From NCBI RefSeq assembly GCF_001444425.1, contig NZ_CP013189.1:2418001-2482000 (forward strand): a stretch of DNA of 64,000 nt. The letters are read 5' to 3'. This DNA comes from Pseudohongiella spirulinae (GTDB taxonomy: Bacteria; Pseudomonadota; Gammaproteobacteria; Pseudomonadales; Pseudohongiellaceae). How positions within the stretch are numbered: the stretch's first letter is position 1; every line of letters begins with the position of its first letter. Below are positions 3,420 through 22,097 of the stretch, in pieces. A program made the position numbers and the translations under genes. Under the pieces are notes generated by a model. It saw only the letters and a list, made by a program, of their open reading frames with translations. It was not told where the DNA came from and made no database searches.

Positions 3420-4682
3420 GTGAAACACTCTGTTCTGTCAGCAAAGCCTCTAAAGCTGATTGCTTCAGCTCTGCTGACCCTCACCATCACCACCCAGGCG
3501 ACTGGTATCGATCACGAGCCGCTGGAGCGCAGCAACCAGCTGGATGTGCAGACAGTCATGCAGCATGCTCTGCAAGCATCTCCGGAGCGTCTGTTAACCG
3601 ATTCGGCCAGTGATCAGGCTTCAGCCTACCGTGCTATAGGACAACGCTGGATCGTCGGCAGTCCTTCGTTGGAAGCCAATATTATTAACGACTCGCTGAT
3701 GAGCAATGTCGGCCAGCGCGAAATGGAAGCCGGCGTGCAGGTACAATTGTGGCGCCCGGGTGAACGCAGCGACGCCCGCCAGCGCGGCTCAGCTTACAAC
3801 TCACGCAGCCAGGCCTGGCAGGCATGGTATCAACTGATGACTGCCGGTCGGGTGCGCGAATCGCTGGCCGAGCTGGAACGTGCAGATCTGGCCATGTCCA
3901 ACGCCATAGTGGCCCAACAACATGCCAGCCGACTGCTCGAGATTACCAGACAACTGCAACAAGCTGGCAGTGCCGCCGAGATGGATGTATTACAGGCTGA
4001 AAGCCTGCTGTTGGCGGCTGACAAACAGGTGCTGGCAGCCGACGCCATGGTGGTCGACGCCGAACGCGAATACCAGATCCTCACCGGCGGCCTGACAGCC
4101 AGACCGGCGCAGGCTCTGCATGAGCAGCAATCCACCGACGAAGAAATCAGCAGCAATCACCCGTTGGTGCAACTGCTACAGGCGAATCTGCAGATCAGTG
4201 ATGCCGCCATTCTGGACGCCGAGCGTCAGGCAAAAGGCAGCCCGTCTGTACAACTGGGTGTGCGCCGCGAGCGCGGCGACTTTGCCCAGCCCTATGTAGA
4301 AAGCGTGGGTATCAGCGTCTCCATCCCGCTGAGCAGCCGCCGTGTGGTTAACGCCAGCACCAGTGACGCGCGTGCCAGCCGCACGGAAGCTGAGGTGGCG
4401 CTGATTAATCAGATGCGCAGCCTGACCCAACAACTACATGAAGTGGAGCACGAGTTGCACACACTTGAGCAATCCCTGCCCCTGAGCGAACGCGAGCACG
4501 CACTGGCTCAGCGTCAATTGCAGATGGCAGAGACTGCCTACAGGAATGGCGAGGTCGACATGACTCATGTGGTTCGCATCATGCAGCAGGCCAGAGCAGC
4601 TGAAAACACCTTCCGCGAATTGCAATTACAGCAACAACACCTTATTTCCTCGTATAACCAGATTATCGGAGTCCTGCCATGA
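3420..4682 (+). CDS. TolC-family outer membrane efflux protein
   Basis: This is the outer-membrane channel of a tripartite efflux system, 420 residues from a GTG start. The frame is open far upstream to 2805, but that part is antisense to the response regulator. The GTG at 3420 has a strong AAAGGAG ribosome site at the right distance and begins a clear signal peptide (KHSVLSAKPLKLIASALLTL). The mature part is rich in Gln, Ala and Leu with long helical stretches and two OEP-type repeats, as in CusC/CzcC. It overlaps the adaptor gene by 4 bp (ATGA). It probably forms one operon with the next three genes. Confidence 0.87.
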   Translation: MKHSVLSAKPLKLIASALLTLTITTQATGIDHEPLERSNQLDVQTVMQHALQASPERLLTDSASDQASAYRAIGQRWIVGSPSLEANIINDSLMSNVGQREMEAGVQVQLWRPGERSDARQRGSAYNSRSQAWQAWYQLMTAGRVRESLAELERADLAMSNAIVAQQHASRLLEITRQLQQAGSAAEMDVLQAESLLLAADKQVLAADAMVVDAEREYQILTGGLTARPAQALHEQQSTDEEISSNHPLVQLLQANLQISDAAILDAERQAKGSPSVQLGVRRERGDFAQPYVESVGISVSIPLSSRRVVNASTSDARASRTEAEVALINQMRSLTQQLHEVEHELHTLEQSLPLSEREHALAQRQLQMAETAYRNGEVDMTHVVRIMQQARAAENTFRELQLQQQHLISSYNQIIGVLP

Positions 4683-5779
4683 ATCTCGCCCTGAAGCGCC
4701 TGCTGGCATACAGCCTGAGCAGTATTCTGCTGCCACTGAGCGGCACCCTGTCAGCCCAGGAATTCATCCCGGTATCAGATGATGAAATACGCGACCTGGC
4801 CATTTTATTTGCTCCGGCTACCCCGGTAGGCAATACCGACGGCGAGCAGGTGCCCGCCACCGTCATCGCCTCTCCGGATGCCAGTAACACGATACACAGC
4901 TGGTTTGAAGGTGTACTGAACCGCTGGCACGTTTCGCCGGGCGACTCAATCGAATCCGGCACGGCTATCGTCACACTGCGAAGTGAAGAGTTACTGTCAA
5001 CGCAACAGGCTTTTCTCGCCGCACTGATTGCACAGTCCAGCGCCGAAGCGGCGCTGCAACGCGACGAAAACCTGTTTGACGCTGGCGTGATCGCCGCCGC
5101 GCGACTGGACGAAACCCGTCGTCAGTCTCAGCAGGCGGCGCTGGCAACGGGAGCCATCCGACAGCGCCTGCTCAGCGCCGGCCTGTCGGCCGCTGATCTG
5201 GACAATCTGACCCGTTCACAGCAGGCCACCGGCACCTACACGCTCCGGGCATCACAAAGCGGCACGCTGGTGCGCCGCCTGTCACAAGTAGGCGATTACA
5301 TTGCCGATGGCAGCGCTGTTGCAGCAATCAACGGCGAGGAACTGCCCTGGTTGCAGGCACGGATACCCGCCTACCTGGCCGGGCAATTGAGCAATGGTCA
5401 AAGCATGCGTATTGCCGAGCAAAACGCCAGCCTGGCGCTGCGCCAGATTGACCAGCAGATTGATCCTCAAACACAGACCATCGGTGTGCTGGCGCAATTC
5501 ACCGATAGCACAAGCTGGATGCCCGGCCAGATTCTGACGCTGATTCTGCCACCGGCGGACACCGGCATCCGCATTCCAGCCGGGTCAGTCGTGTTCAACG
5601 GTGCAGACACCACCATTTATGTCCGCCGCCAGGGCGGCGTGGAAGCCCGCACAGTCGAGCTGCAACCTGCCGGGCGCAATTATCTGGCTGTCAGTGGCAT
5701 CAGCGCCGGCGAGGATATCGTCACCCAGGGTGCAGCCGTACTTAAGGGCATTCAGTTGGGACTGGGAGGAACGGAATAA
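4679..5779 (+). CDS. RND efflux periplasmic adaptor (CusB/CzcB type)
   Basis: This is a membrane-fusion protein of 366 residues that bridges the inner-membrane RND pump and the TolC-like channel. It has an N-terminal signal sequence (LLAYSLSSILLPLSGTLSAQ), split lipoyl/barrel-sandwich halves around a helical hairpin (about residues 100-180, Gln- and Ala-rich), and a beta-barrel region containing DPQTQTIGVLAQF. Its start overlaps the channel gene and its stop overlaps the pump gene by 1 bp. CusB-like adaptors often carry extra N-terminal metal-binding Met residues. I see no obvious Met cluster here, so copper or silver is not specially supported. Confidence 0.88.
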   Translation: MNLALKRLLAYSLSSILLPLSGTLSAQEFIPVSDDEIRDLAILFAPATPVGNTDGEQVPATVIASPDASNTIHSWFEGVLNRWHVSPGDSIESGTAIVTLRSEELLSTQQAFLAALIAQSSAEAALQRDENLFDAGVIAAARLDETRRQSQQAALATGAIRQRLLSAGLSAADLDNLTRSQQATGTYTLRASQSGTLVRRLSQVGDYIADGSAVAAINGEELPWLQARIPAYLAGQLSNGQSMRIAEQNASLALRQIDQQIDPQTQTIGVLAQFTDSTSWMPGQILTLILPPADTGIRIPAGSVVFNGADTTIYVRRQGGVEARTVELQPAGRNYLAVSGISAGEDIVTQGAAVLKGIQLGLGGTE

Positions 5780-8700
5780 TGTTGTCCCGTCTCGTACAAC
5801 TATCGCTGAGCCAGCGCCTGCTGACTGGCCTGCTGGCACTGTTGATCGCCGGATTCGGTATGCGGGCCTTGCTGCAATTGCCCATTGATGCCTTTCCGGA
5901 TATTTCCCCCACGCAGGTCAAAATTATTATCAAGGCACCGGGCATGACGCCGGAAGAAGTTGAAGCGCTGATTACCCAGCCGGTCGAAGTGGAGCTGCTG
6001 GGCATACCCCGCAAAACCATTCTGCGCTCAATTTCCAAATACGCACTGAGTTCCATCACCCTGGATTTTGAAGAAGGCACTGATATTTACTGGGCGCGCC
6101 AGCAGGTTGCCGAACGACTGAATAATGTCTGGAGTGACCTGCCGGGTGACATCAGCGGTGGTCTGGCACCCATGAGCACTCCCCTGGGTGACATGTTCAT
6201 GTTCACCGTTGAAAGTGACACCATGACCCTGGAAGAAAAGCGCTTCCTGATTGACTGGACCATTCGCCCGGCGTTGCGCACCGTGCCCGGTGTGGCCGAT
6301 GTCAACGCGCTGGGTGGCTATGTACGCACCTATGAAGTGATACCCGACCCCGCTGCCATGGCCGCACTGAGTGTGAGTCACGAAGATCTGATCACAGCAC
6401 TGGAAGTCAACAACAAAAACGACGGTGCCGGACGAGTTGATCAGGGTGAGGAAGCTCTGTTGGTGCGTGTATCCGGCGCGATTGGCAGCCTGCAGGATAT
6501 TCGTGACATCCGCGTCACCAATACCCACGGTGACGTCGTACCGCTCTCGCGTGTGGCTGACGTGGCAGCCGGGACCATGGAACGCTACGGTTCAGTCACT
6601 GCCGATGGCACCGGCGAAGCGGTGCAGGCGCTGGTGATCGGTATGACCGGCGCTAACGCTCGCGAGGTGGTCAACGGCGTCAAGGCCAAAATGGCAGAAA
6701 TCGAAACCACCCTGCCAGCGGGCACGCATTTCGATATCTTTTACGACCGCAGCATTCTGATTGGTGGCGCGGTCAATACCGTGACCAAGGCGCTGCTGGA
6801 AGCTGTCGCGCTGGTGGTGATTTTGCTGTTTCTCTTCCTTGGCAACATCCGCGCGGCAGTGACCGCTGCCATGATCCTGCCCTTCTCGGCACTGGTCACT
6901 TTTTTGCTGATGAACAGTGTTTCAATGACAGCCAACCTGATGAGTCTGGGCGGCCTGGTCATCGCCATCGGCATATTGGTCGACTCGGCAATTGTGGTGG
7001 TTGAAAACATTGTCGCCACCATGAGTCATCACAATAATCAGAACCGTCTGCCGCGCCTGCACGTGATCTTTCGAGCCGTCAAGTCGGTGGCTGTACCCGT
7101 CACCTCGGGCATTTTGATCATCATCATCGTCTTCCTGCCCCTGCTGTCGCTGGAAGGACTGGAAGGCAAGCTGTTCGGCCCGGTCACCATGACCATTGTA
7201 TTTGCACTGATCGCCTCACTGACGCTGTCGCTGACTGTCATCCCGGTGGTTGCATCCTATCTGATCACCAAAGCCGAGCACGAAGATCCCTGGCTGGCCA
7301 GAAATCTGCTGAAGCTGTACACACCACTGCTGAAAAAAGCACTGGCCAAACCTTTGTACATCATCAGCGTGGCGGCTGCCCTGCTGGTCGCCACCGTGGC
7401 CATTTTTCCGATGGTCGGCAAAACCTTTATGCCCTCTATGGATGAGGGTGACATGATTGTGCAACTGGAGATGATACCTTCCATCAACCTGGAAACCTCC
7501 ACCCGATTGGTCACTCAGATTGAACGCGCACTGCTGGCAGATATTCCGGAAATTCAGCGACTGGTCTCGCGTACCGGTTCTGACGAAATCGGCATGGACC
7601 CCATGGGTCTGAATGAGGTGGACATGTTCCTGCACCTGAAACCCATGCGTGAATGGCAGGTAGCGTCCAAGGAAGAGCTGGAAAACAACGTACGTGCCAT
7701 CATGGATCGCTACCGCGGCATCAACTACGGCTTCACTATGCCGATTGATATGCGCGTTTCAGAGATGTTGACCGGTTCACGGGGCGATGTGGCCATCAAA
7801 CTGTTCGGGACCGATCTGGACGACCTGAACCTGTATGCCCAGCGCATCTCGGACACCGTTGAATCCATCCCGGGCGCGGTCGATACAACCGCCACCCTGA
7901 ATGAGGGTGCACAATATCTGCAGATCACCGTGGATCGCATCCGCGCCGGAGAATTGGGTCTGGATGCCGATCAATTGCAGCGCCGCCTGCGTGCGCAGAT
8001 CGAAGGACTGAATGTTGGCACTGTGATTGAAGACGGCGCTCGGGTACCTTTGATGATCCGCTTTGACAAGGTGGGTGGCGACGGTGATGCCGCCATGCGC
8101 AACAATCTGATCAGTCTGCCGGATGGTGGCTATATTCCGTTGTCCAGCATCGCCACCATTGCGCGCGTTGAAGGTCCTGTCACCATTAACCGCGAAGATG
8201 GTCAACGTTTTGCCGTGGTGCGCACCAATGTGGAAGGCCGTGACCTGGTTGGTTTTGTGGATGAAGCCCGCCAGGCCATTGCCCAGCAGATTGATCTGCC
8301 GGAAGGTTACACGCTGGCCTGGGGCGGTGAGTTCGAAAACCAGCAGCGCGCTGCAGCACGCCTTGGCCTGGTAGTACCCGTTGCGCTGTTATTGATCGCA
8401 CTGGTACTGTTTATGACATTTCATTCCATTAAGCAGACAGTCATCATTCTATCCAATATCCCCTTTGCCATGACCGGGGGGCTGATTGCACTGTGGCTGA
8501 CAGGTGAGTTTCTGTCGGTACCGGCCTCGGTTGGCTTTATTGCCTTGCTGGGCATTGCGGTGCTGAACGGAGTGGTGATGATGTCTCACTTTAATCATCT
8601 GGCAGCCAAAGGCATGTCGGCTGCTGAAGTGGCCTTTGAAGGCGCGCTGCGAAGATTACGCCCCGTCATGATGACGGCATCCATCTGTGCCATAGGCCTG

Positions 8701-8871
8701 GTGCCCTTGTTATTGGCGACCGGCCCGGGTTCTGAAATCCAGAAACCACTGGCCATTGTGGTGATTGGCGGCCTGATCAGTTCAACCCTGCTGACGCTGT
8801 TCCTGCTGCCCATCATCTATCGACAGTTTCATAAAAAAGACAGCCTGGCAATGGCAGGAGAATCTGCATGA
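5779..8871 (+). CDS. Heavy-metal efflux RND pump (CusA/CzcA family)
   Basis: This is the inner-membrane, proton-driven pump subunit, 1030 residues, a normal length for the HME-RND family. It has the N-terminal helix followed by the LPIDAFPDISPTQVKI motif typical of HME pumps, a first large periplasmic loop, a TM block including NLMSLGGLVIAIGILVDSAIVVVEN, a second periplasmic loop, and a final TM block with RRLRPVMMTA and GSEIQKPLA. The TM4 segment carries the conserved Asp used in proton relay. The substrate subclass (Zn/Co/Cd, Cu/Ag or Ni) is not clear from the TM4 motif. It is translationally coupled to the adaptor upstream and the DUF3240 gene downstream. Confidence 0.92.
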   Translation: MLSRLVQLSLSQRLLTGLLALLIAGFGMRALLQLPIDAFPDISPTQVKIIIKAPGMTPEEVEALITQPVEVELLGIPRKTILRSISKYALSSITLDFEEGTDIYWARQQVAERLNNVWSDLPGDISGGLAPMSTPLGDMFMFTVESDTMTLEEKRFLIDWTIRPALRTVPGVADVNALGGYVRTYEVIPDPAAMAALSVSHEDLITALEVNNKNDGAGRVDQGEEALLVRVSGAIGSLQDIRDIRVTNTHGDVVPLSRVADVAAGTMERYGSVTADGTGEAVQALVIGMTGANAREVVNGVKAKMAEIETTLPAGTHFDIFYDRSILIGGAVNTVTKALLEAVALVVILLFLFLGNIRAAVTAAMILPFSALVTFLLMNSVSMTANLMSLGGLVIAIGILVDSAIVVVENIVATMSHHNNQNRLPRLHVIFRAVKSVAVPVTSGILIIIIVFLPLLSLEGLEGKLFGPVTMTIVFALIASLTLSLTVIPVVASYLITKAEHEDPWLARNLLKLYTPLLKKALAKPLYIISVAAALLVATVAIFPMVGKTFMPSMDEGDMIVQLEMIPSINLETSTRLVTQIERALLADIPEIQRLVSRTGSDEIGMDPMGLNEVDMFLHLKPMREWQVASKEELENNVRAIMDRYRGINYGFTMPIDMRVSEMLTGSRGDVAIKLFGTDLDDLNLYAQRISDTVESIPGAVDTTATLNEGAQYLQITVDRIRAGELGLDADQLQRRLRAQIEGLNVGTVIEDGARVPLMIRFDKVGGDGDAAMRNNLISLPDGGYIPLSSIATIARVEGPVTINREDGQRFAVVRTNVEGRDLVGFVDEARQAIAQQIDLPEGYTLAWGGEFENQQRAAARLGLVVPVALLLIALVLFMTFHSIKQTVIILSNIPFAMTGGLIALWLTGEFLSVPASVGFIALLGIAVLNGVVMMSHFNHLAAKGMSAAEVAFEGALRRLRPVMMTASICAIGLVPLLLATGPGSEIQKPLAIVVIGGLISSTLLTLFLLPIIYRQFHKKDSLAMAGESA

Positions 8872-9158
8872 AAATACTTCTGGTCTTAAATATTCCACCA
8901 GCACTGGAAGATGACATGGTCGATTACCTGCTGGAAATGGAGGAAGTCCGCGGTTTCACCTCATTTGCAGCCCAGGGCCATGGCGGCGGCGAGCAGCTGA
9001 CCGTCACTGAGCAGGTCAGCGGCCGCCGCAAACGGGTTCAATTTGAAATCATCATTGACGAAGACATTGCAGACAGGGTTATCGCGGGCCTTTCAACCCG
9101 CGTCGGCAAGGACATTGCCTACTGGCAACTGCCGGTAAGTGGCATTGGCCATACCTGA
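8868..9158 (+). CDS. DUF3240 family protein of metal-efflux operon
   Basis: This is a small soluble protein of 96 residues beginning MKILLVLNIPPALEDDMVDYL. It matches DUF3240, a ferredoxin-like or PII-like small domain usually found as the last gene of HME-RND efflux operons. It overlaps the pump gene by 4 bp. There are no Cys residues and few His residues, so it is unlikely to be a simple metal chaperone. A regulatory role is possible but not established. Its stop lies one base from the convergent cytochrome gene. Confidence 0.75.
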   Translation: MKILLVLNIPPALEDDMVDYLLEMEEVRGFTSFAAQGHGGGEQLTVTEQVSGRRKRVQFEIIIDEDIADRVIAGLSTRVGKDIAYWQLPVSGIGHT

Positions 9159-9159
9159 G

Positions 9160-9900
9160 TCAGTTCCGCGGTGGTTGACGGAAAACTTTCTTGCCAGAAA
9201 TCATCGCGGAAACCAGACCGTTTCCATGGCGGATTTCCTCAACCACCACCGCCAGTACATGCAGAAACACAGCCACCAGCATCACCCAGAAAAATAACTT
9301 GTGGATATAGATAAATGGTTCGCGGAACTGACGCATGGCTGCGTAGCCTTCCGGATCCAGCATTTCCTTGGCGCCGGGCACCAACCCCACCAATTGACTG
9401 TGATCTTCTCCAGCCCCTGTTGCCCACTCGGCAAACTCGTGCCCAAAAGGCGGAAAATACAGATCAGTGCCAGCCAACACCAGACCCGTCGTCATTTGCC
9501 CGACCAGCAGCACATACAAAGCCAGCAACATTAATTTGGCGGCCGGATTGTGCCCACGATATTCAGGCGCCTGCCCCGTGCGAATACCACGCAGCCATTC
9601 CTTTAACTCGCCAGGATAAGCCCGGCGGAACGGCATCACCGCTCCCCAGCGCGCCGTGCTGCTGCCCACAAACCCCCAAACCAGCCGCCACAGCAGATTG
9701 AATGCAAACACATAACCCACATAGGCATGCATGATCTTGAGCGTTATTTTACCCTCACTACTGATGCCTAACAGGTTCGCATACAGGATGGTCGACCCGA
9801 TGATCATCAAGGCCAGGACACACAGTACATTGACCCAATGGAATATTCTGATGGAACGATCCCACACTTTCTCTTCATAGAGCCGGTTTTCAGTCGTCAT
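9160..9900 (-). CDS. Cytochrome b561-type membrane protein
   Basis: This is a 246-residue membrane protein of the cytochrome b / Ni-Fe hydrogenase cytochrome subunit type. Four to five membrane helices carry candidate haem-binding histidines, e.g. in RIFHWVNVLC, KIMHAYVGYV, YIHKLFFWVM and FLHVLAVVVEEIRHGN. Such proteins pass electrons between the quinone pool and a periplasmic donor or acceptor. A GTG nine bases upstream is possible, but the ATG at 9900 has an AGGAG ribosome site at 8-base spacing. No partner cytochrome c or hydrogenase gene is nearby, so the electron partner is unknown. Confidence 0.82.
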   Translation of the reverse strand: MTTENRLYEEKVWDRSIRIFHWVNVLCVLALMIIGSTILYANLLGISSEGKITLKIMHAYVGYVFAFNLLWRLVWGFVGSSTARWGAVMPFRRAYPGELKEWLRGIRTGQAPEYRGHNPAAKLMLLALYVLLVGQMTTGLVLAGTDLYFPPFGHEFAEWATGAGEDHSQLVGLVPGAKEMLDPEGYAAMRQFREPFIYIHKLFFWVMLVAVFLHVLAVVVEEIRHGNGLVSAMISGKKVFRQPPRN

Positions 9901-10001
9901 GTGTTCCACTCCTGTTGTGGTCGTTTAAACCATTTTCGCGGGGATATATGTCGGGCGCATGAACGGAATCAAACAGCAAACAAACTGCGTTGCAGGCGCT
10001 G

Positions 10002-11057
10002 TTAACCTGCAGGAAACCAGTGACGGGTTCGATTAGCAAAGGCCACCAGTGACAACATGACGGGCACCTCAACCAACACACCAACCACTGTCACCAATGC
10101 TGCGCCGGAATTGAGACCAAACAAGCCGATAGCTACCGCAACCGCCAACTCGAAAAAATTGGATGTACCGATCAACGCGCATGGTGCCGCGACGTTAAAG
10201 GGTACCTTCCAGAGTTTCGCGGCGATGTAGGCAATCGCGAACATACCGTATGACTGTATCAACAAAGGTACGGCGATTAGTCCAATCAATAAGGGCTGAG
10301 CCAGAATCACCTGCCCCTGAAAGCCAAACAACAGCACAACGGTGGCAAGCAGCCCCAATACCGACAAGGGTTTTACCCTTGCGGTAAACCGTGACACTGC
10401 TGCTTCCGCTTCATCAGCATTCCGGGCCCGACGACTCAGTCGCTGACGCGTGATCACGCCCGCCAGCAGAGGAATCACAACATAAAGCCCAACTGACAGC
10501 AGTAATGTTGCCCATGGCACCTCTATGTCAGTTACTCCCAACAGCAATGCAACTATCGGCGCAAAAGCGAAGATCATGATGACATCGTTAAGCGCGACCT
10601 GCGCCAGTGTGTAGTTGGGGTCGCCCCGGGTCAATTGCGACCAGACAAATACCATGGCCGTGCAGGGTGCTGCACCCAACAGAATCAGTCCGGCGATATA
10701 CTGACTGGCGTTGGCAGGATCAATCAGATCAACAAACAAGGTATGGAAGAACAAAACACCAAGCGCCGCCATCGTGAAGGGTTTGATCAGCCAGTTGACT
10801 GTCAGGGTGATAATCAGTCCCTTGGGGCGCTCATGCACACGCCGCAGACTGCCGAAATCCACAGCCACCATCATTGGGTAGACCATGAACCAGATCAACG
10901 CAGCGACCAGAAAATTCACTGAGCCGTATTCCAAAGCGGCCAGAGCCTGAAACAGATCAGGCAGAAGGATGCCCAGGGCAATGCCTGCTGCAATACAAAG
11001 TGCTACCCAGACTGAGAGATAACGCTCAAAAAAACTGATGCCTTGATTTTCGCTCAT
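10002..11057 (-). CDS. acr3: Acr3-family arsenite efflux transporter
   Basis: This 351-residue carrier has about ten membrane helices and belongs to the bile/arsenite/riboflavin transporter superfamily. The segment [25 protein letters not shown] is split here as [15 protein letters not shown] plus GDPNYTL and is characteristic of Acr3, with the Cys required for arsenite transport. It exports As(III), and sometimes Sb(III), from the cytoplasm using the proton gradient. No ArsR or ArsC gene is adjacent, so it may be expressed alone. The start is ATG ([14 protein letters not shown]). Confidence 0.9.
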
Positions 11058-11140
11058 ACGTCAAAACTACAACTATTACTAAAATATCTCAATTGAATAC
11101 GAAATAACTACGTCGCAAAAAGCCCCGCTCCCCTTTATGT

Positions 11141-11165
11141 ACGATATTTTTACGATATTTTTACG
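11141..11165 (+). promoter_or_regulatory. Tandem 11-bp repeat upstream of trkH (candidate KdpE-like site)
   Basis: ACGATATTTTT is present twice head to tail (11141-11151 and 11152-11162) and is followed by a third partial ACG. The 11-bp period is one helical turn, typical of OmpR/KdpE-family operators. It lies about 57 bp upstream of the trkH start, in the gap between acr3 and trkH. A weak -10 (TATGAA at 11180-11185) follows. The KdpE-like regulator encoded downstream in the same operon is the obvious candidate ligand. This is inference from position. Confidence 0.45.
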
Positions 11166-11221
11166 CAACAGTACTGTCTTATGAATCGATTATTTACATC
11201 GTCTGGCGTTATGCTTTGACT

Positions 11222-12670
11222 ATGTGGAGATTATTCAGCCCAATTCTGTTCGTTTGCGGCTTGCTGCTACTGGCAATGGCGTTTTTGATGCTTGTTGTGG
11301 CTGGTTTTGCATGGATTCGCCTTGATCCCGAGGCAACCATCTTTCTTGCCTCAGCAGCACTGACGGGAGTCTCCGGGCTGGCTCTGATCATTCCAACTCA
11401 CGGCGCCAAATTCAATCTGGTCGCCCGCCAGCTGTATCTTCTGACATCTGCCTGCTGGTTTACGATATCGCTTGCCGGCGCACTGCCCCTGTTTTTCAGC
11501 CACTTTGAGCTGACTTTTACCGATGCCGTTTTTGAGGCCGTATCGGGCATCACCACCACAGGTTCAACCATCCTGTCTGGTCTGGAGCACCTGCCAGCCA
11601 GTCTGTTGTTGTGGCGCTCTCTGCTGCAGTGGATCGGAGGTCTGGGCGTCATTGGCATGGCCGTGTCCATCCTGCCCTTCCTGCAGGTTGGGGGCATGCG
11701 CCTGTTTCAGACAGAATCATCCGACTGGTCAGATAAATCAATGCCCCGCATCCAGAATCTCGCCCGTTTCCTGCTGGCCACCTATGCCGCTCTGACGATC
11801 GCCTGCGCACTGGCTTACTGGGCCAGTGGCATGAGTATTTTTGATGCCATCAACCACGCCATGACCACCGTTTCAACTGGAGGCTACGCAACCGATGACC
11901 GCTCCATGGGGCGCTTTGATTTAAATATTCTGTGGGTCGGCATTATATTCATGCTGCTTGGCGCCACGCCATTCACAATGATCATCGCCTTCCTGCGCAG
12001 GCCTGATTTATCGCTATTAAAGAATTCACAGTGGTTATCGTTGCTTGGCATTGTTGCAACGGTTTCAATTGTGCTTGGCACGTGGCTGTGGTCTCAATCG
12101 CGTTTCACCTCATTTGAAGCCTACACTCAGGCAACCTTCAACCTGGTGTCTGTGATCACCACAACCGGTTATGCGTCTGCTGATTACACGACCTGGGGCA
12201 ATTTCAGCATTGTGCTGTTTTTTCTGGTCATGTTTATTGGCGGCTGTTCCGGGTCGACCAGTGGTGGACTCAAAGTATTCAGGTTTCAGCTAGGTTATCT
12301 GTTTATGCGAAATCAGTTCCGCAAACTGGTGCATCCGCAGGGTATGTTTGTCACGCAATATAACAACAAGGTGGTGACCGATGATATTGTCTTGTCAGCA
12401 GTCGCATTCACGTTTTTATTCTTTATCTGTCTGGCCGTATTAACGTTGATACTCGGCTTACTGGGGCTGGACCTGGTCACAGCCCTGTCGGCTTCTGCCA
12501 CAGCATTAACCAATGTAGGACCCGGACTGGGACCTGTTATCGGTCCGGCCGGAAATTTTGCCCCGCTGCCCGATACGGCCAAGTGGCTGCTAAGCTTTGC
12601 CATGATTCTGGGCAGACTGGAATTGATGACCGTGATGGTGCTGTTCGCACCGGTATTCTGGCGAGACTGA
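11222..12670 (+). CDS. trkH: TrkH-family potassium uptake channel subunit
   Basis: This is the pore subunit of a Trk K+ uptake system, 482 residues. All four selectivity-filter loops are visible: SGITTTGST, STGGYATDD, TTTGYASAD and LTNVGPGLG. Each has the conserved glycine, with eight or more membrane helices between them. I use the ATG at 11222. A TTG two codons earlier gives no better ribosome site. It lies 4 bp upstream of a KdpD-like kinase gene, with KdpE-like and TrkA genes following closely, so the four form one operon. Confidence 0.92.
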   Translation: MWRLFSPILFVCGLLLLAMAFLMLVVAGFAWIRLDPEATIFLASAALTGVSGLALIIPTHGAKFNLVARQLYLLTSACWFTISLAGALPLFFSHFELTFTDAVFEAVSGITTTGSTILSGLEHLPASLLLWRSLLQWIGGLGVIGMAVSILPFLQVGGMRLFQTESSDWSDKSMPRIQNLARFLLATYAALTIACALAYWASGMSIFDAINHAMTTVSTGGYATDDRSMGRFDLNILWVGIIFMLLGATPFTMIIAFLRRPDLSLLKNSQWLSLLGIVATVSIVLGTWLWSQSRFTSFEAYTQATFNLVSVITTTGYASADYTTWGNFSIVLFFLVMFIGGCSGSTSGGLKVFRFQLGYLFMRNQFRKLVHPQGMFVTQYNNKVVTDDIVLSAVAFTFLFFICLAVLTLILGLLGLDLVTALSASATALTNVGPGLGPVIGPAGNFAPLPDTAKWLLSFAMILGRLELMTVMVLFAPVFWRD

Positions 12671-12674
12671 CAAT

Positions 12675-14129
12675 ATGCACTTTCGGTTAACTGACAAGTT
12701 GAACTGGCGTCTCTGGGTACTGCCGTGGCTGAGCCCGCTCATGGCGACAGCATTCGCTATGGCTCTGAGACCGGTGTTTGCAACACCTAATCTGGCCATG
12801 ATCTATCTGGTGGCTGTTCTGATAACGGCTGTCAGCACCAGCATCCGTCCCGCACTGATTTGTGCCGTCTTGAGTTTTATCAGTTACAATTTCTTTCTGA
12901 CCGAGCCCTATTATTCTCTGCTCATCTCGCACCGCGAGGATCTGCTGACCGGCCTCATGCTGATCGCCGTAGCGCTGATCACAGCCCCCCTGACAGCACG
13001 TTTGAGCGAGCAGCTGGAAGCCCTGCGAGCAAGCGAAAGCTGGAGTATGCAACAGATGCAGGCTGCCAGCCTGTTTTCAGGGCTTGCCAATGCTGAGGAA
13101 ATTATCCGCATACTCAAGAATGAATTGCATAACGCACTTCACTGGCATGTCACCAGCCATGACACCACCCGACAACACAAGGACACTGTCGAGCAGTCTT
13201 GCGACATACTGATCACCGAAGACCCCGCTGGATTCAGCATCGCTTTCTGGGATCACAACAGACAGTGCGCCGCCATACTGAGACTGGCAGCCACCAGCCC
13301 CGTGCAGGACTGGCATCGCGAACGCGTTGATGCGCTGGTAAAACTTGCCCGACTGGCATGGACCCGTGTGCAACTGACCGACTCCTTGCGACAGGAAACA
13401 CTTGAGAAGGAACGTGAACAGCTGCGCTCGGCTCTGCTGTCCTCCATATCCCATGATCTGAGGACACCTTTGTCAGCCATGATCGGCTCGGTTTCCAGTC
13501 TGATCGATCTGGCTGACTCACTGAATCAGTCTCAGCGCGACGAACTGCTAAACAATACCCTGAGCGAAGCCCGCCGCCTTGATCGCTATATCCAGAAGCT
13601 GCTGGATATGACCCGTCTTGGCCACGGCGAACTGTCACTGGATCGTGACTGGATTGGACTGGACGATATCATCAGCGTGGTTTTGCGGCGCGGCCAATCC
13701 CTTCTGGGTGGAATCCGCATCCGCGTTGAGATGCCGGAGGATATGCCTCTACTGCATGTCCACCCTGCTCTCATTGAACAGGCCATCTTCAATGTACTGG
13801 AAAATGCCATCCGTTTTTCGCCACCCAATGGGGAAATTTCTTTGACGGCATCCAGTAATGATGATTGCCTGGATCTTGACATACACGATGAAGGTCCGGG
13901 CATTGCAACTGAGGACAGCGAACGGGTATTCGACATGTTCCACTCCGTCAGTCACGGCGATCAGATGCAAGCCGGAACAGGCCTGGGGCTGACTATCTGT
14001 CGCAGCATTCTTGTGGCTCATGGCGGACAAGTCAGCGTACTGCCGAGCAATCCGCAGTCAACGGGAACAACTTTCCGCATCAGCCTGCCCATCCATGTTC
14101 CCACAGAGCTGCCGAAGGAGGATCAGTAA
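12675..14129 (+). CDS. Short KdpD-like sensor histidine kinase
   Basis: This 484-residue kinase lacks the N-terminal KdpD/Usp ATP-binding region of classical KdpD (about 890 residues). It starts directly at the four-helix DUF4118 membrane domain (about 15-115), with YNFFLTEPYY as in KdpD. A GAF-like region follows (about 120-235), then HisKA with SSISHDLRTPL (His260) and HATPase with LENAIRFSPPNG, DEGPGI and GTGLGLTICR. Its stop overlaps the KdpE-like start by 1 bp. Position inside the trkH-trkA operon implies that it reports K+ or turgor state to a Trk system and not to a KdpFABC pump, which is absent here. Confidence 0.88.
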   Translation: MHFRLTDKLNWRLWVLPWLSPLMATAFAMALRPVFATPNLAMIYLVAVLITAVSTSIRPALICAVLSFISYNFFLTEPYYSLLISHREDLLTGLMLIAVALITAPLTARLSEQLEALRASESWSMQQMQAASLFSGLANAEEIIRILKNELHNALHWHVTSHDTTRQHKDTVEQSCDILITEDPAGFSIAFWDHNRQCAAILRLAATSPVQDWHRERVDALVKLARLAWTRVQLTDSLRQETLEKEREQLRSALLSSISHDLRTPLSAMIGSVSSLIDLADSLNQSQRDELLNNTLSEARRLDRYIQKLLDMTRLGHGELSLDRDWIGLDDIISVVLRRGQSLLGGIRIRVEMPEDMPLLHVHPALIEQAIFNVLENAIRFSPPNGEISLTASSNDDCLDLDIHDEGPGIATEDSERVFDMFHSVSHGDQMQAGTGLGLTICRSILVAHGGQVSVLPSNPQSTGTTFRISLPIHVPTELPKEDQ

Positions 14130-14812
14130 TGTTCTCGATTCAGGTGATCGACGATGAGCCCCAGATCCGGCGCTTTCTGACTATCTGTCTGGAATCTCAG
14201 GGCTATCGAGTCCTGCTGACGGAAACTGCAAGGCAGGGGCTGGAATCGGTGGCATTAAAAAGCCCTGACCTGGTGATCATGGATCTGGGCCTGCCGGATA
14301 TGGATGGGCAGGAACTGCTGCTACAACTCAGAGAATTTTACAAGGGACCGGTTCTGGTGCTGTCTGTGAGAAATACGGAAAAAGAAAAAGTATCAGCACT
14401 GGACCGGGGCGCTAACGACTACATTGAAAAACCATTTGGTGCCAATGAACTACTGGCACGGATCAGATCATTGTTGCGAACATTTGCCAACATCGAGGTA
14501 CCTGCCACGCAATATGACGATGGCCACCTGCAGGTCGATATGGCGAGTCGGCGTGTTTGCTTATCCGGAAAAGAAATACACCTGTCACGAAAAGAATTTG
14601 AACTGCTGCAATTGTTGATCGCCCACCAGGGGCGGATTATCACCCAGCAACACCTGCTGAAAACGCTATGGGGACCCAGTCATGCAGAGGATACACACTA
14701 CCTGCGAATTTTCATTGGCCGACTGCGAGCCAAACTTGGTGACAACCCTACACAACCAAGATACATCGAAACCGAAGCAGGCGTCGGCTACCGTTTCATG
14801 GGCCAGGGGTAA
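14129..14812 (+). CDS. KdpE-like response regulator
   Basis: This is a 227-residue OmpR-family regulator, with a receiver domain (Asp52 in IMDLGLPDMDG, Lys in IEKPFG) and a winged-helix DNA-binding domain (about 125-225, ending VGYRFMGQG). It closely resembles KdpE in length and in the LSVRNTEKEKVSALDRGANDY region. It partners the DUF4118 kinase upstream and is 6 bp from trkA. The tandem 11-bp repeat upstream of trkH is a likely target, which would make the operon autoregulated. Confidence 0.9.
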   Translation: MFSIQVIDDEPQIRRFLTICLESQGYRVLLTETARQGLESVALKSPDLVIMDLGLPDMDGQELLLQLREFYKGPVLVLSVRNTEKEKVSALDRGANDYIEKPFGANELLARIRSLLRTFANIEVPATQYDDGHLQVDMASRRVCLSGKEIHLSRKEFELLQLLIAHQGRIITQQHLLKTLWGPSHAEDTHYLRIFIGRLRAKLGDNPTQPRYIETEAGVGYRFMGQG

Positions 14813-14818
14813 TTCAGT

Positions 14819-16195
14819 ATGCGAATAATCATTCTGGGCGCTGGCCGGGTTGGCGGCACACTGGCAGAACACCTTGCCGGTGAAGCGAATGACATCACCG
14901 TGGTAGACAACGATGAGCGTGTTCTGCAGGCCTTGCAGGACAAGCTGAATGTGCGGGTGGTGGTGGGTTCAGCCTCGCTGCCGGGCGTTCTAAGGCAAGC
15001 CGGCGCGGATGACGCGGATATGCTGATCGCCGTCACCAGCAGCGACGAAATCAACATGATTGCCTGCCAGGTGGCAATGACATTTTTTCAGGTCCCCAGA
15101 AAAATCGCGCGAGTACGTGAGGCCGATTATCTGTCAGCAGAGCAGTCCCTTTTTACCGAAAAAGGTGTTCCGGTTGACGTGCTGATCAGTCCGGAGAACC
15201 TGGTAACTGAGCGTCTGGAACATTTGCTGGAGTATCCGGGCGCACTTCAGGTACTGGACTTTGCTGACGGCCGCTTGCAACTGGTGGCCGTCAGAGCCAG
15301 TTTTGGTGGAGCCCTGACCGGGCGCCAGATAGCAGAACTACGTCAACATATTGCCGACTACGACATGCGAATTGCTGCGGTTTTTCGCCAGGAGCAGGCC
15401 ATTGCTCCCAGTGGCACAACTGTGCTGGAAGCGGGCGACGAGGTATTCTTCGTCGCCGCCAAGAAGCACATCAGGCAAATCCTTAACAAGCTGACACCGG
15501 AAACCGAACACTACCACCGCATCATGATCGCCGGTGGCGGACATATCGGCGAACGACTGGCCGAGCATATACAGGGCAACTATCGCGTTAAATTGATCGA
15601 GTTCTCTGAACAACGCTGCAAGGCGCTGTCTGTGCGTCTGAAACGCACGACCGTCCTGCATGGCAGCGCCACCGACAAAGAGTTGTTGGTGTCCGAAGGC
15701 ATCGAAAAGACAGACGTCTTTCTGGCACTGACCAATGATGATGAAACCAACATCATGGCATCCATGCTGGCGAAAAAGTCAGGTGCCAGAATGGCCATTA
15801 CCCTGATCAATAACCCGGTTTACGTTGACCTGATTCAAGGCGGTACCATCGACATCGCGCTGTCACCACAGCAGTCCACCATCGGCGCGTTGCTGACCCA
15901 CGTCAGGCGCGGCGATGTGGCGGCGGTGCATTCATTGCGGCGCGGCGCGGCAGAAGCACTTGAGGCAGTAGCACATGGCAGCCGTGAAACCTCACACGTG
16001 GTCGGCCGTGCTATCGGTGAATTGAACTTGCCTGCGGGAGCCGTCGTTGGTGCCCTGGTCAGAGGAGCTGATGTGCTGATTGCTCACGATGACCTCGTCA
16101 TTGAAGATGGCGACCACGTAATCGTATTTGTCGCCGACAGAAGGGCACTGAAGCAGGTTGAACAACTGTTTCAGGTTGCGCTTAATTTCTTCTAG
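14819..16195 (+). CDS. trkA: TrkA, NAD-binding gating subunit of Trk
   Basis: This peripheral protein of 458 residues has two tandem RCK modules. The nucleotide-binding motifs are GAGRVGGTLAEHL (near the start) and AGGGHIGERLAEHI (about residues 238-251), each followed by an RCK_C domain. TrkA binds NAD(H)/ATP and gates the TrkH pore at the inner membrane. The length matches E. coli TrkA. It is the last gene of the operon. Confidence 0.95.
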   Translation: MRIIILGAGRVGGTLAEHLAGEANDITVVDNDERVLQALQDKLNVRVVVGSASLPGVLRQAGADDADMLIAVTSSDEINMIACQVAMTFFQVPRKIARVREADYLSAEQSLFTEKGVPVDVLISPENLVTERLEHLLEYPGALQVLDFADGRLQLVAVRASFGGALTGRQIAELRQHIADYDMRIAAVFRQEQAIAPSGTTVLEAGDEVFFVAAKKHIRQILNKLTPETEHYHRIMIAGGGHIGERLAEHIQGNYRVKLIEFSEQRCKALSVRLKRTTVLHGSATDKELLVSEGIEKTDVFLALTNDDETNIMASMLAKKSGARMAITLINNPVYVDLIQGGTIDIALSPQQSTIGALLTHVRRGDVAAVHSLRRGAAEALEAVAHGSRETSHVVGRAIGELNLPAGAVVGALVRGADVLIAHDDLVIEDGDHVIVFVADRRALKQVEQLFQVALNFF

Positions 16196-16221
16196 GGCTC
16201 CGGCAGCCGGTTATCAGCCGT

Positions 16222-16276
16222 CTGTCACCAAACTGTTAAACAAACTACATCAAACCGTCACAACAGCGTCATAACA
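16222..16276 (+). promoter_or_regulatory. Five in-phase 11-bp PhoB-box-like repeats
   Basis: Read in consecutive 11-mers from 16222, the sequence gives CTGTCACCAAA, CTGTTAAACAA, ACTACATCAAA, CCGTCACAACA and GCGTCATAACA. The consensus half-site of PhoB is CTGTCAT followed by a 4-bp A-rich spacer, also 11-bp periodic. Units 1, 2, 4 and 5 fit well. The array sits 54 bp upstream of the start codon of the TonB-dependent receptor. The likely meaning is PhoB-dependent induction at low phosphate. Confidence 0.6.
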
Positions 16277-16330
16277 TATGTCTCCGATAACAAGAACGAT
16301 ACATTCATTCTTAGATTTCGGAGTTAACAC

Positions 16331-18889
16331 ATGCAGAATTCCCACAGATTCACGCCGCACAAGTTACTGGTCGCGATGCTGATGGCCAGCGCCGGCACTG
16401 GCGCTGTTGCGCAGACCACAGAGTTGGAAGAAATTCTGGTATTCGGCCAACGTGCCGCTCAGAACAAGGCGCTGGACGAATACCGTCGCGCCAACTCCAT
16501 TACCAACTACATTGCTGCCGACGACATGGGTCAGTTCGTTGACCAGAACGTGGCAGAGTCCCTGCAGCGCCTGCCTGGCATTTCCATCTCCCGCGACCAG
16601 GGCGAAGGCCGTTTTGTCAGCGTCCGTGGTATTGATGCAGGTCTGAGCACCGTCACCATCAATGGCATGCGCATTGGCACACCGGAAGACGGTTCACGCG
16701 CAGTGCCCCTGGATGTGATTCCCACCGGCTCGGTAGAATTGCTGGAAGTGACCAAGGTACCGACGCCAGACATGCCGGGCGATGCTATTGGCGGATCGGT
16801 CAATGTGCGCTCAGCCTCTGCCTTTGATCGTGAAGGCCAACAACTGGCATATCGCGCTGAGGCTTCTTACAACGAACTGAGTGGCGAAACCAGCCCCAAG
16901 GGTCAGATTGACTTCAGCGACGTCTACAGCGCCTTCGGTGGCACCGAGAATCTGGGCGTAACCTTTGGCCTGAACTACACCGAGCGCCAGATGGAGTCTG
17001 ACAACGTTGAAGCGGAATACGATTTTCTGGACTTCAATGGCAGTGACGTCTTCTCCGTTATCGAACTGCAGGAGCGCAAGTATGACCTGGCCCGTGAACG
17101 CACTGGGGCCAACCTGAATCTGGAATACCGCCCTGATGACCGGACGCGCCTGCACGCATCAACGGTTTACAGTAACTTCAAAGATGCAGAAACGCGCCAG
17201 CGTACCATTTACGTGTTTGAAGATGGCGATCTGACCAGCTTTAACGGCTCTGCTGCTGTTTACGAAGACATTGATGAAGACGGCTTCCGTCGTCGTATCC
17301 GCTTCCGTACCAAGGACCAGGATACACTGGCCTTTAATGCCGGGGGTGAGCACGACTTTTCGCAGTGGCGCCTGGACTACAACGTCGGCATCTCTGATAC
17401 CAAAGAGCGTGTGCTGGATGAAAAGGAAGGCCGTTTTGAAAAAACCGGTGACGCCCTGAACGCTGATGTGCTGATCGGTGGTGGACTGCCCTCATTTACC
17501 ATTCGCAACGGCAATGCGGTCACCCGCGAGCACCTGATCAACAGCAACTATGAGCTGGACCGGGTTGTGGTTGAACCCATCCTGGTTGACGACCGGGATG
17601 TGAACTTCAACATCAATATGGAAGTACCGGAAGCGTTTGGCATCAATACACTGACCGTGAAAGCCGGCCTGGACGGTCGCTTTAAAGAAAAAGACATCAA
17701 CGTCGATGAGATCGAACTGCGCCGCACGCCTGATGTCAATCTGGCCCAATTCACCACCAACCCTTACTCGCATGGTCTGGCAGATATGGGTGAAGGCATC
17801 AGCTCCGCAGGCTTCATGAGTTTCTATGATCAAAACCAGAGCCTGTTCACGGCGCGCCCGCAGGATGTGGACGAAAATACCGAGCTGTCACTGTCGCAGG
17901 ATTTCGTCGCTGATGAAGACGTCACAGCCGCCTATATGATGGGCACCTGGGAACTGGATCGTCTGCGCATCATCGCTGGTGGCCGGGTCGAGCGCACTGA
18001 ATACAGTGCCCGCGGTAACGAGCTGGTCTACGGTGTGGATGGCTCGCTGAGCGTGAACGCCCGCAATGTCAATTCCAAATACACTGACTTCCTGCCGGGA
18101 CTGCATGTGCGTTACGAGCCGACTGACGATCTGGTGATCCGCGCAGCCTGGAGCAACACCATTGCCAGACCATCCTTCGGTGATATTTCGCCCCGCTCGG
18201 TGGTCGACCGCGACCGGCTGAGAATCGATGCCGGCAACCCGGATCTGGATCCTTACAAAGCCACCAACTTTGACCTGCTTGCCGATTGGTACTTCGGCGA
18301 TTCAGGTGTGGTCTCAGCCGGGGTGTTCTACAAGGACATCGAAGACTACATCGTGGAGTTCACTTCACGTAACAACCCGGCGTTTGGCGGCTATGATGTC
18401 ACCCAGCCAATCAACGGCACCGAAGCCTCAGTAAAGGGCATCGAGTTCAATGCTCAGCAGGGACTGGAAATCTTCAGTGAATCGCTGACCGGCCTGCTGG
18501 CTGGCGTGAATGTCACCCTGCTGGATACTGAGCTGAAACTGTCTCAGCGGACAGGTGAAAACTTCATGCTGCCCGCGGCGGCTGAAGAGTCCGGCAATAT
18601 CTACATCGGCTACGAAAACGAGCGCTTCAGCACCCGCCTGAGCGCCACCTATCGTGGCAAGATGCTGGATGAAGTGGGTGATGACACCAACTTTGACATC
18701 TACGTTGCTTCTCACACGCAGGTGGATCTAACGGCGTCCTATCGTTTCAGTGATCGACTTGAGCTGGTAGCAGAGTTGATCAATCTGACCGACGAACCAC
18801 TGGAGCTGTATCAGGGTTCCAAAGGTTACACGCTGCAATTGGAAGAGTACGGTCCGACGTTTGCCTTTGGTATCAAAGGTCGTTTCTGA
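16331..18889 (+). CDS. TonB-dependent outer membrane receptor (TIGR01782 type)
   Basis: This 852-residue outer-membrane receptor has a signal peptide (LLVAMLMASAGTGAVAQ), a TonB-box-like segment EEILVFGQR, and a plug domain with VAESLQRLPGISISRDQGEGRFVSVRGI. A 22-strand barrel follows, ending in the aromatic FAFGIKGRF. The plug sequence is that of the Xanthomonas/Caulobacter-type receptor family TIGR01782, whose members import carbohydrates, phosphate esters and other solutes. A GGAG ribosome site precedes the ATG. PhoB-like repeats upstream suggest a phosphorus-containing substrate. No adjacent phytase or phosphatase gene is seen, and the substrate remains open. Confidence 0.9.
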   Translation: MQNSHRFTPHKLLVAMLMASAGTGAVAQTTELEEILVFGQRAAQNKALDEYRRANSITNYIAADDMGQFVDQNVAESLQRLPGISISRDQGEGRFVSVRGIDAGLSTVTINGMRIGTPEDGSRAVPLDVIPTGSVELLEVTKVPTPDMPGDAIGGSVNVRSASAFDREGQQLAYRAEASYNELSGETSPKGQIDFSDVYSAFGGTENLGVTFGLNYTERQMESDNVEAEYDFLDFNGSDVFSVIELQERKYDLARERTGANLNLEYRPDDRTRLHASTVYSNFKDAETRQRTIYVFEDGDLTSFNGSAAVYEDIDEDGFRRRIRFRTKDQDTLAFNAGGEHDFSQWRLDYNVGISDTKERVLDEKEGRFEKTGDALNADVLIGGGLPSFTIRNGNAVTREHLINSNYELDRVVVEPILVDDRDVNFNINMEVPEAFGINTLTVKAGLDGRFKEKDINVDEIELRRTPDVNLAQFTTNPYSHGLADMGEGISSAGFMSFYDQNQSLFTARPQDVDENTELSLSQDFVADEDVTAAYMMGTWELDRLRIIAGGRVERTEYSARGNELVYGVDGSLSVNARNVNSKYTDFLPGLHVRYEPTDDLVIRAAWSNTIARPSFGDISPRSVVDRDRLRIDAGNPDLDPYKATNFDLLADWYFGDSGVVSAGVFYKDIEDYIVEFTSRNNPAFGGYDVTQPINGTEASVKGIEFNAQQGLEIFSESLTGLLAGVNVTLLDTELKLSQRTGENFMLPAAAEESGNIYIGYENERFSTRLSATYRGKMLDEVGDDTNFDIYVASHTQVDLTASYRFSDRLELVAELINLTDEPLELYQGSKGYTLQLEEYGPTFAFGIKGRF

Positions 18890-20765: not shown

Positions 20766-22097
20766 CTACTGCTCAGCATCCGGGTTGCTCAACGCATAAC
20801 GAAACACATACTGCACATTAGGCACGTCAACCGCCTGGCCTGCCACAATACGCGGGCTGAAAAGAAAACGCCTGGCAGCGGCCAGCGCGGTATGATCAAA
20901 GACATACGGCGGTTCAGCCTCCAAGACTCGCAATGACTCCGCATCCACCGCCCCGTCAGCCTTTACGGTAAAGCGCACATGTACCCAGCCTTCAATGCGC
21001 TTTTCAGCCGCCTGAGAGGGATACATGGGTTCAACGGTATTCAGCGGTATCATCTCCCTGTCTATTTCACGACCATCCGCGTCAGGTCGCTCCTGTGCTG
21101 TCAGTACCTGACTGCTACCCAGCAGGCCCAGCATAACGGTCGACAATACCACGGCTATCGCCACGGTTTTTTGTACTTGTTGTTTCATTTCTGCTGCATT
21201 CATCACTTGCTCCTCAAGCACACGGCTTATTCTCTTTTTGAGTGTGTTTCGATCGTGCATGGTTTGCATCAGCAAACGACTGGTGCGTCTGGATCGGCGA
21301 GCATGGATACAACTGCTGGCTACCCCCAGTAAGCTTTCAGCATAGTCGCTGTTATTGCGCCCGGCATTGACCACCGCCGCATCACAGCTGTTTTCAGACT
21401 CCTCGTGCAATCGCTGTGCGGCATACCAGACCAGCGGATTCGGCCAGAAAACAGTGCGCACCAGGTAACAGAGCAAAGCACTTAGCCAGTCGAGACGCCT
21501 GATGTGACAGAGCTCGTGCAACAGGACATCAGTCAATACTGCCTCCGACCATTGCTGCGACTGCACCGGGAGCAGAATGACAGGGCGGAACAATCCGAAT
21601 GACACAGGCGAGTCCAGATCGGGACTCATCTTTATGTCGACCCGTCGGGCGATCCGGAGGCTGGCACATAGCCGGCCGTGCATGGCAGCCAGTCGACTGT
21701 CCGCAGCCCTGCTGGCACGCCGGACGATCGATGCCAGGCGGAGTGCGGCGATGGCCAGTCTGGCTAGCATGAGGGTTACCACCGCGCAGTAGACTCCTAT
21801 TGCAATAGATCCGGGTGACCAATAAGCCCAATACCCAGGCGCCGACAGCTGCATTGAATCAATCCTCAGTTCAAATAGTGCACCCGTCGCAGGACCGCTG
21901 TCAGCAACCGCGGAAAGCCAGATGGTGATTGGCCCGGCCAGTGGCAGTATCGTCAGACACAGCACACAGACCAACCACAGCAAGTGGCGACCGGCTGGAT
22001 GGATGCGCCGACCCAGAATGAAGTCAGCCAAAGAAAACACCCCCACCAGGGCCACAGACTTGAACAGAAGATCCATAATCCAGATAGCTTGTTCCAT
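20766..22097 (-). CDS. BlaR1-type M56 metallopeptidase with TonB C-terminal domain
   Basis: This 443-residue membrane protein has about four helices with the M56 zinc motif HELCHIRRLDW (HExxH) and a downstream ESENSCDAAVV ligand region. A further helix follows (VAIAVVLSTVMLGLLGSSQVL), then a periplasmic TonB-like C-terminal domain (about 350-440) with YPSQAAEKRIEGWVHVRFTV and FSPRIVAGQAVDV. BlaR1 proteins transmit a cell-surface signal by cleaving or inactivating the partner BlaI repressor. Here the penicillin-binding sensor domain is replaced by a TonB-type domain, so the signal need not be a beta-lactam. It lies 12 bp downstream of blaI. Confidence 0.88.
   Translation of the reverse strand: MEQAIWIMDLLFKSVALVGVFSLADFILGRRIHPAGRHLLWLVCVLCLTILPLAGPITIWLSAVADSGPATGALFELRIDSMQLSAPGYWAYWSPGSIAIGVYCAVVTLMLARLAIAALRLASIVRRASRAADSRLAAMHGRLCASLRIARRVDIKMSPDLDSPVSFGLFRPVILLPVQSQQWSEAVLTDVLLHELCHIRRLDWLSALLCYLVRTVFWPNPLVWYAAQRLHEESENSCDAAVVNAGRNNSDYAESLLGVASSCIHARRSRRTSRLLMQTMHDRNTLKKRISRVLEEQVMNAAEMKQQVQKTVAIAVVLSTVMLGLLGSSQVLTAQERPDADGREIDREMIPLNTVEPMYPSQAAEKRIEGWVHVRFTVKADGAVDAESLRVLEAEPPYVFDHTALAAARRFLFSPRIVAGQAVDVPNVQYVFRYALSNPDAEQ

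Follow-up and report, generated by a model that had tools for sequence, protein, structure and literature searches.

Can a KdpDE-type two-component system serve a potassium transporter other than its own pump? KdpDE is the textbook sensor of K+ limitation and is discussed together with that pump, and the Trk and Ktr transporters are usually regarded as constitutive. The question is raised by a locus of Pseudohongiella spirulinae, contained in a stretch of 64,000 nucleotides (contig NZ_CP013189.1, positions 2,418,001 to 2,482,000; hereafter the window, its positions being counted from the first letter), where a kdpD-like and a kdpE-like gene stand between trkH and trkA. We consider it probable that these four genes constitute an inducible Trk operon under the control of a KdpDE two-component system retargeted from Kdp to Trk. 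The sequence evidence for a KdpE operator at trkH is strong.

The packed order trkH-kinase-regulator-trkA, described by the first-pass annotation of the window, is confirmed by the open reading frame (ORF) coordinates, the intergenic distances of 4, −1 and 6 bp being those of a tight operon (Table 1). The trkH product has a TrkH domain (231 bits) and the trkA product contains TrkA_N and TrkA_C; TrkH and a two-domain TrkA are thus both encoded, which identifies the transporter as Trk. The start of trkH is probably the ATG at 11222 rather than the TTG at 11216, because the N-termini of its relatives align there. The regulator, with Response_reg and Trans_reg_C domains, is closest to KdpE among the OmpR-type regulators (best NCBIfam match KdpE with 236 bits, the next one with 174), and its closest solved structures are those of E. 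coli KdpE. The residues required for DNA binding by E. coli KdpE, R193, R200 and T215 (PMC3264566), are all three identical and at the same positions in the window regulator.

The operator predicted upstream of trkH consists of two TTTACG half-sites with a period of 11 bp. They belong to a tandem repeat (11140-11165, period 11, 2.4 copies, 100% match), and the box is preceded at a distance of one period by a weaker TGTACG (11138-11143). Allowing up to one mismatch, TTTACG-N5-TTTACG has three matches in the window against 0.06 expected; two of them overlap at the trkH repeat and the third lies at 37534. Across the genome TTTAYG-N5-TTTACG matches only upstream of trkH, and its reversed control has no match. 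The looser TTTAYR-N5-TTTAYR stays at chance level genome-wide, with three matches versus four in the reversed control, and the relaxed box was rejected as a means of finding a regulon. The site resembles that of E. coli KdpE, TTTATA-N5-TTTACA with a footprint from −72 to −50 (PMC3264566), which we re-found in the K-12 sequence. A scan of 11058-11300 for a consensus σ70 promoter and a terminator found nothing, and Rfam gave no match over 8-20 kb of the window. If the TATGCT hexamer is taken as the −10 element, the box would be placed at about −73 to −57, near the position of the E. coli footprint. The same assignment would put the transcription start at about the trkH ATG and yield a leaderless message; in relatives there is space for a leader between the equivalent −10-like element and the start codon.

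Table 1. Coordinates of the genes and of the predicted regulatory elements of the trk operon in the window.
Feature	Coordinates	Strand	Remarks
Predicted KdpE box TTTACG-atatt-TTTACG	11149..11165	+	two half-sites, 11-bp period
Third half-site TTTACA	11193..11198	+	33 bp past the second half-site
−10-like hexamer TATGCT (putative)	11210..11215	+	11 bp past the third half-site; position conserved by eye in relatives
trkH, K+ channel subunit	11222..12670	+	ORF listed from TTG 11216
Short KdpD-like histidine kinase	12675..14129	+	DUF4118 membrane part, GAF-like middle, HisKA and HATPase
KdpE-like response regulator	14129..14812	+	from domains and NCBIfam
trkA, regulatory subunit of Trk	14819..16195	+	from ORF, domains and NCBIfam

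Conservation of the site was studied in 34 heads of Trk- or Ktr-linked operons, selected by hand and with start codons judged by eye, over upstream stretches of 250+60 bases (250+40 in the ORF-control and period tests). Three loci were left out: L076, whose kinase head is too short, L070, at a contig end, and L067, which is the L005 locus. The motif was first seen in the loci of a kinase scan, and the loci sampled later were scored without refitting the consensus. The best match to TTTAYR-N5-TTTAYR reached 12 of 12 positions in 23 heads and at least 11 in 32. Among the 335 other ORFs of at least 200 amino acids from loci L005-L079, a control that includes overlapping and probably false ORFs, none reached 12 and six reached 11. 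The period is specific as well: at 11 bp, 17 of 25 de-duplicated heads have a perfect site and 23 one of at least 11 positions, versus none or one perfect and 0 to 10 with at least 11 for 15 other periods. The box is placed before the first gene of the operon, be it trkH, trkA (L015), kdpD (L062) or ktrA (L060, with 11 of 12, and L074, with 12 of 12 and an uncertain start codon that was set by hand, the box falling 16 bases past it). In L009, trkA (8190-9566), located apart from kdpE, bears a three-part site of its own. Relatives preserve the half-sites and the spacing and not the letters of the spacer, and the third half-site is complete (6 of 6) at +33 in 21 of the 34 heads. Outside the 34, heads without a neighbouring TrkH scored 12 of 12 (L063), 10 (L061 and L024) and 7 (L026), and the kdpD head of L060 scored 10. 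The first of these, L063 (genome G057, 4590-7221), has a short kdpD-kdpE pair with no TrkH in its vicinity and the perfect KdpE box before kdpD.

The same layout occurs at the pump genes. In Kdp-type loci, 12 of 266 ORFs counted as controls had a perfect site, and nine of these are ORFs of 540-640 amino acids taken as kdpA; one was checked, the gene behind the boxed promoter of L085, and it is confirmed as KdpA. The complete three-part layout, third half-site at +33 included, was found in eight of nine boxed kdpA promoters of relatives, and in some Kdp-type loci (e.g. L084, L091, L095 and L096) the tested stretch contains no perfect site. Within the order, Trk operons of the window clade bear the promoter layout of kdpFABC. 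Phylogenetic footprinting, the site and layout shared with the kdpA promoters of relatives, the similarity of the half-sites to those of E. coli and the conserved DNA-contact residues all argue for the proposal, already made by the first-pass annotation, that a KdpE-like dimer on the 11-bp repeat would control Trk. Three features go beyond that proposal: the third half-site and, as described below, a second Trk system in the genome and a GAF-like remnant within the kinase.

The kinase is short and comprises DUF4118, HisKA and HATPase_c; a domain search detected neither a KdpD nor a Usp domain, in agreement with the initial description. KdpD is its best NCBIfam match (222 bits, the next 133), its DUF4118 scores 87 bits and matches the solved membrane part of KdpD (2ksf, E 2e-6), and its alignment with E. 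coli KdpD spans the membrane part and the catalytic part. H260, the phospho-acceptor, is conserved in all of the 35 kinases compared. Residues 118-243 have no Pfam match, GAF included. This middle part was folded separately because a fold search with the whole kinase returned mainly the catalytic core. The predicted structure (predicted local distance difference test 89.6) resembles GAF folds, that of E. coli KdpD among them (4y2f, Z 9.4, root mean square deviation 4.0 over 112 residues), other GAF domains tying or scoring higher, and in Foldseek the model gave an E of 0.017, no match reaching 0.001. The loss of the N-terminus accompanies the change of neighbour: the KdpD N-terminal domain (PF02702) is present in none of the 35 Trk- or Ktr-linked kinases (one has a weak Usp match and one a GAF match) versus all 17 Kdp-linked ones, E. 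coli included, and kinases next to trk or ktr have 326-670 amino acids versus 883-948 for those next to kdpC. The missing domain, earlier viewed as part of signalling (PMC2714519), has since 2024 been described as a serine kinase that in E. coli phosphorylates KdpB and thereby shuts the pump, K+ sensing being placed in the transmembrane and GAF parts (PMC11018627).

What does the system serve in its own genome? The latter consists of one contig of 3.35 Mb with a single DUF4118 protein. A kdpFABC locus elsewhere, which the first-pass annotation had named as evidence to the contrary, is absent as far as KdpC shows; KdpC was not found, KdpA and KdpB not being sought, and Kup was not found either. 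A further TrkH is encoded at C1:11805-13136, adjoining a trkA and next to genes that, from their translations, we take to be rsmB and fmt. It is 38% identical to the TrkH of the window, and the two TrkA proteins are 56% identical. No two-component genes adjoin this second trkA-trkH pair and the box patterns have no match there. The genome therefore holds a housekeeping-type Trk plus another Trk with its own regulators; both have TrkH and TrkA, and unlike the former the latter has adjoining two-component genes and the box.

The arrangement is not confined to this genome. A survey of gene order, recommended at the outset, gave 22 related loci in a kinase scan of the genome collection, and in 20 of them trkH directly precedes kinase and regulator; trkA follows in seven of these 20 and precedes in one (L015). 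In 21 of the genomes with these loci, that of L010 being left out, KdpC was found in two, Halopseudomonas pelagia and the genome of a Nevskiaceae locus devoid of trkH. An order-wide sample contained DUF4118 in 36 of 244 genomes, with 38 matches. KdpC lies no more than 3 kb away from 14 of these and a TrkH-family gene no more than 3 kb away from 16; the other eight, some of them weak, are near neither. Ktr variants, named from their TrkA_N and TrkH domains and protein lengths, have the order kdpD-kdpE-ktrA-ktrB (L062) or ktrA-ktrB-kdpD-kdpE (L074); in L060 (genome G182, 3865-7689), which is from the same genus as the window, ktrA-ktrB is convergent with a short kdpE-kdpD pair and has a box of 11 of 12 before ktrA. 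A sample of the phylum had DUF4118 in 187 of 398 genomes; among the matches listed, 26 genomes with short kinases were picked, and in eight of them, on inspection by eye, TrkH and DUF4118 are about 3 kb or less apart (G354, G303, G292, G326, G378, G586, G394 and G401).

In a KdpE tree the closest neighbour of the window regulator is a Haliea sequence, its sister (100/94), and the regulator falls into one group with the KdpE of Trk-linked loci in Pseudomonas and Halopseudomonas (97/93). KdpEs cluster by their linkage to Trk or Kdp but do not form two clean clades, and the targets may therefore have changed more than once. The Trk label changes seven times over 54 rows, three of the changes being forced by starred branches; a single origin of the linkage is unsupported, and the number of switches is uncertain. 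The tree labels L062 wrongly as kdp, on account of an unrelated kinase of 1009 amino acids on that locus, which is Ktr-linked. Recent import of the operon was also considered from base composition, which gave no signal (GC 0.538 in the operon and 0.543 in the window).

Several observations weigh against a retargeted KdpDE system. Kinase and regulator score below the equivalog cut-offs of KdpD (222 against 1123 bits) and KdpE (236 against 325 bits). Two of the 34 heads have no good box (L064, 10 of 12; L025, 8 of 12), a perfect third half-site at +33 is absent from 13, and many of these loci are close relatives, the 25 heads of the period test being the de-duplicated set. E. coli lacks a good third half-site at +33 and has TTTGCA at +32. 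The separation from the pump is incomplete, since Halopseudomonas pelagia and one of the 16 TrkH-type genomes of the order-wide sample (G235) carry KdpC as well. The trait is patchy within the genus: of six genomes, one carries the operon and another its Ktr counterpart, and the remaining four are without a DUF4118 match. Finally, E. coli KdpD deprived of its N-terminus still responds to K+ limitation but fails to repress when external K+ is high (PMC2714519), and therefore the response of the window system may differ from that of the complete kinase.

How would other explanations accommodate these data? That the 11-bp tandem repeat arose by chance and serves no function can hardly be maintained. 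The window does contain other short tandem repeats (22 rows in all) and the tandem form is peculiar to it, but this explanation, already disfavoured because relatives keep half-sites and spacing without the spacer letters, also has to face the genome-unique match, the excess over expectation in the window, the footprinting, the ORF controls and the specificity of the period. The two-component genes might instead be mere passengers in a constitutive or autoregulated operon, Trk being under no meaningful control by them, as the patchy occurrence in the genus and the presence of a second Trk would allow; we hold this to be very unlikely given that the box precedes the first gene whichever gene that is, and that the trkA of L009, separated from kdpE, has its own three-part site.

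More weight, if still that of an outside chance, belongs to the proposal that the regulator binds the box and controls Trk in response to salt, osmolarity, Na+ or pH and not to K+ scarcity. The names of several carriers point to a marine or halophilic life, and salt stress acts on E. coli KdpDE too (PMC2714519). However, the parts in which E. coli KdpD senses K+, transmembrane and GAF (PMC11018627), are those kept in the short kinase, the latter as a GAF-like part, the Usp domain that is tied to the salt response is absent from it, and the cargo of the operon is K+ uptake.

Compared with E. coli KdpDE-kdpFABC, the window system has in common the contact residues of the regulator, the half-sites, the 11-bp period, the approximate position at the promoter, and the DUF4118 and catalytic parts of the kinase; it differs in that the target is Trk, the kinase has neither the KdpD (serine kinase) nor the Usp domain and a clear third half-site is located at +33. 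In some phyla KdpD is split, with serine-kinase and histidine-kinase chains on two polypeptides, as reported in a survey of species with annotated Kdp(F)ABC (PMC11018627). The window kinase likewise has the histidine-kinase chain of KdpD and no serine-kinase domain; the split systems include KdpABC and provide the serine kinase as a chain of its own, whereas here the neighbour is Trk and KdpC was not found. That KdpDE touches Trk is not a new idea, since in M. tuberculosis deletion of KdpDE was reported to change the expression and activity of Trk (PMC8358298). Unlike the window, that strain also has KdpFABC, and the accessible text describes neither a shared operon nor a KdpE site at trk. The gene list of Kushneria konosiri X49 comprises KdpD, KdpE, two TrkA and two TrkH, KdpFABC not being mentioned in the accessible part (PMC6167781); the comparison is one of gene counts, that part describing no arrangement or regulation. 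None of the titles and abstracts in the open-access literature searched places KdpDE within a trk operon or describes a site for KdpE at trk, and the combination of dedicated operon, operator and matching domain loss was not met there.

On the assumption that KdpDE has been retargeted to Trk, we propose the following mechanism, in which low K+ as the signal is inferred from the kinship with KdpDE, and activation rather than repression, the transcription start and the role of TrkA in shut-off would be further inferred elements. Upon K+ shortage, the short kinase, with its DUF4118 and GAF-like parts as sensors, would autophosphorylate at H260 and pass the phosphate to the KdpE-like regulator. 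The latter would bind the TTTACG-N5-TTTACG box (about −73 to −57) and the third half-site, and would recruit RNA polymerase to a promoter devoid of a consensus −35 element. Expression of the operon, its own regulators included, would supply a second Trk transporter besides the rsmB-linked one. The absence of the serine-kinase module would be explained by the lack of a KdpB for it to act on, and it would be for TrkA, by gating, to stop transport.

Directly upstream of the operon, 4679-11057 looks like a metal-resistance neighbourhood, with genes for an HlyD-type adaptor, an AcrB-type resistance-nodulation-division pump, a DUF3240 protein and the arsenite efflux protein ACR3. A promoter linked to acr3 was rejected, because this gene is divergent in the window and among the 22 related loci occurs in one (L007), in the opposite orientation. 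Downstream, a TonB-dependent receptor of the TonB-Xanth-Caul type (16331-18889) lies on the same strand, 135 bp past trkA, and a scan of 16150-16400 for a consensus σ70 promoter and a terminator detected neither, leaving no terminator predicted in between. Farther on, 20766-22097 on the minus strand encodes a BlaR1-type M56 peptidase domain and a TonB C-terminal domain in one protein.

On a broader view, there is an even chance that the KdpE operator-promoter is a movable cassette for inducing K+ uptake, joined to Kdp, Trk or Ktr in different lineages, the kinases outside Kdp being without the serine-kinase module. If so, the histidine-kinase part of KdpD could alone serve as a K+ sensor, and Trk and Ktr would be K+-inducible in many Pseudomonadota. 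The Trk-linked systems would constitute a natural experiment, with the histidine-kinase half alone, another transporter and the same operator, that allows one to ask which parts of KdpD sense K+. They also lead to the prediction that genomes annotated with KdpDE and no Kdp pump would have a K+-inducible Trk.

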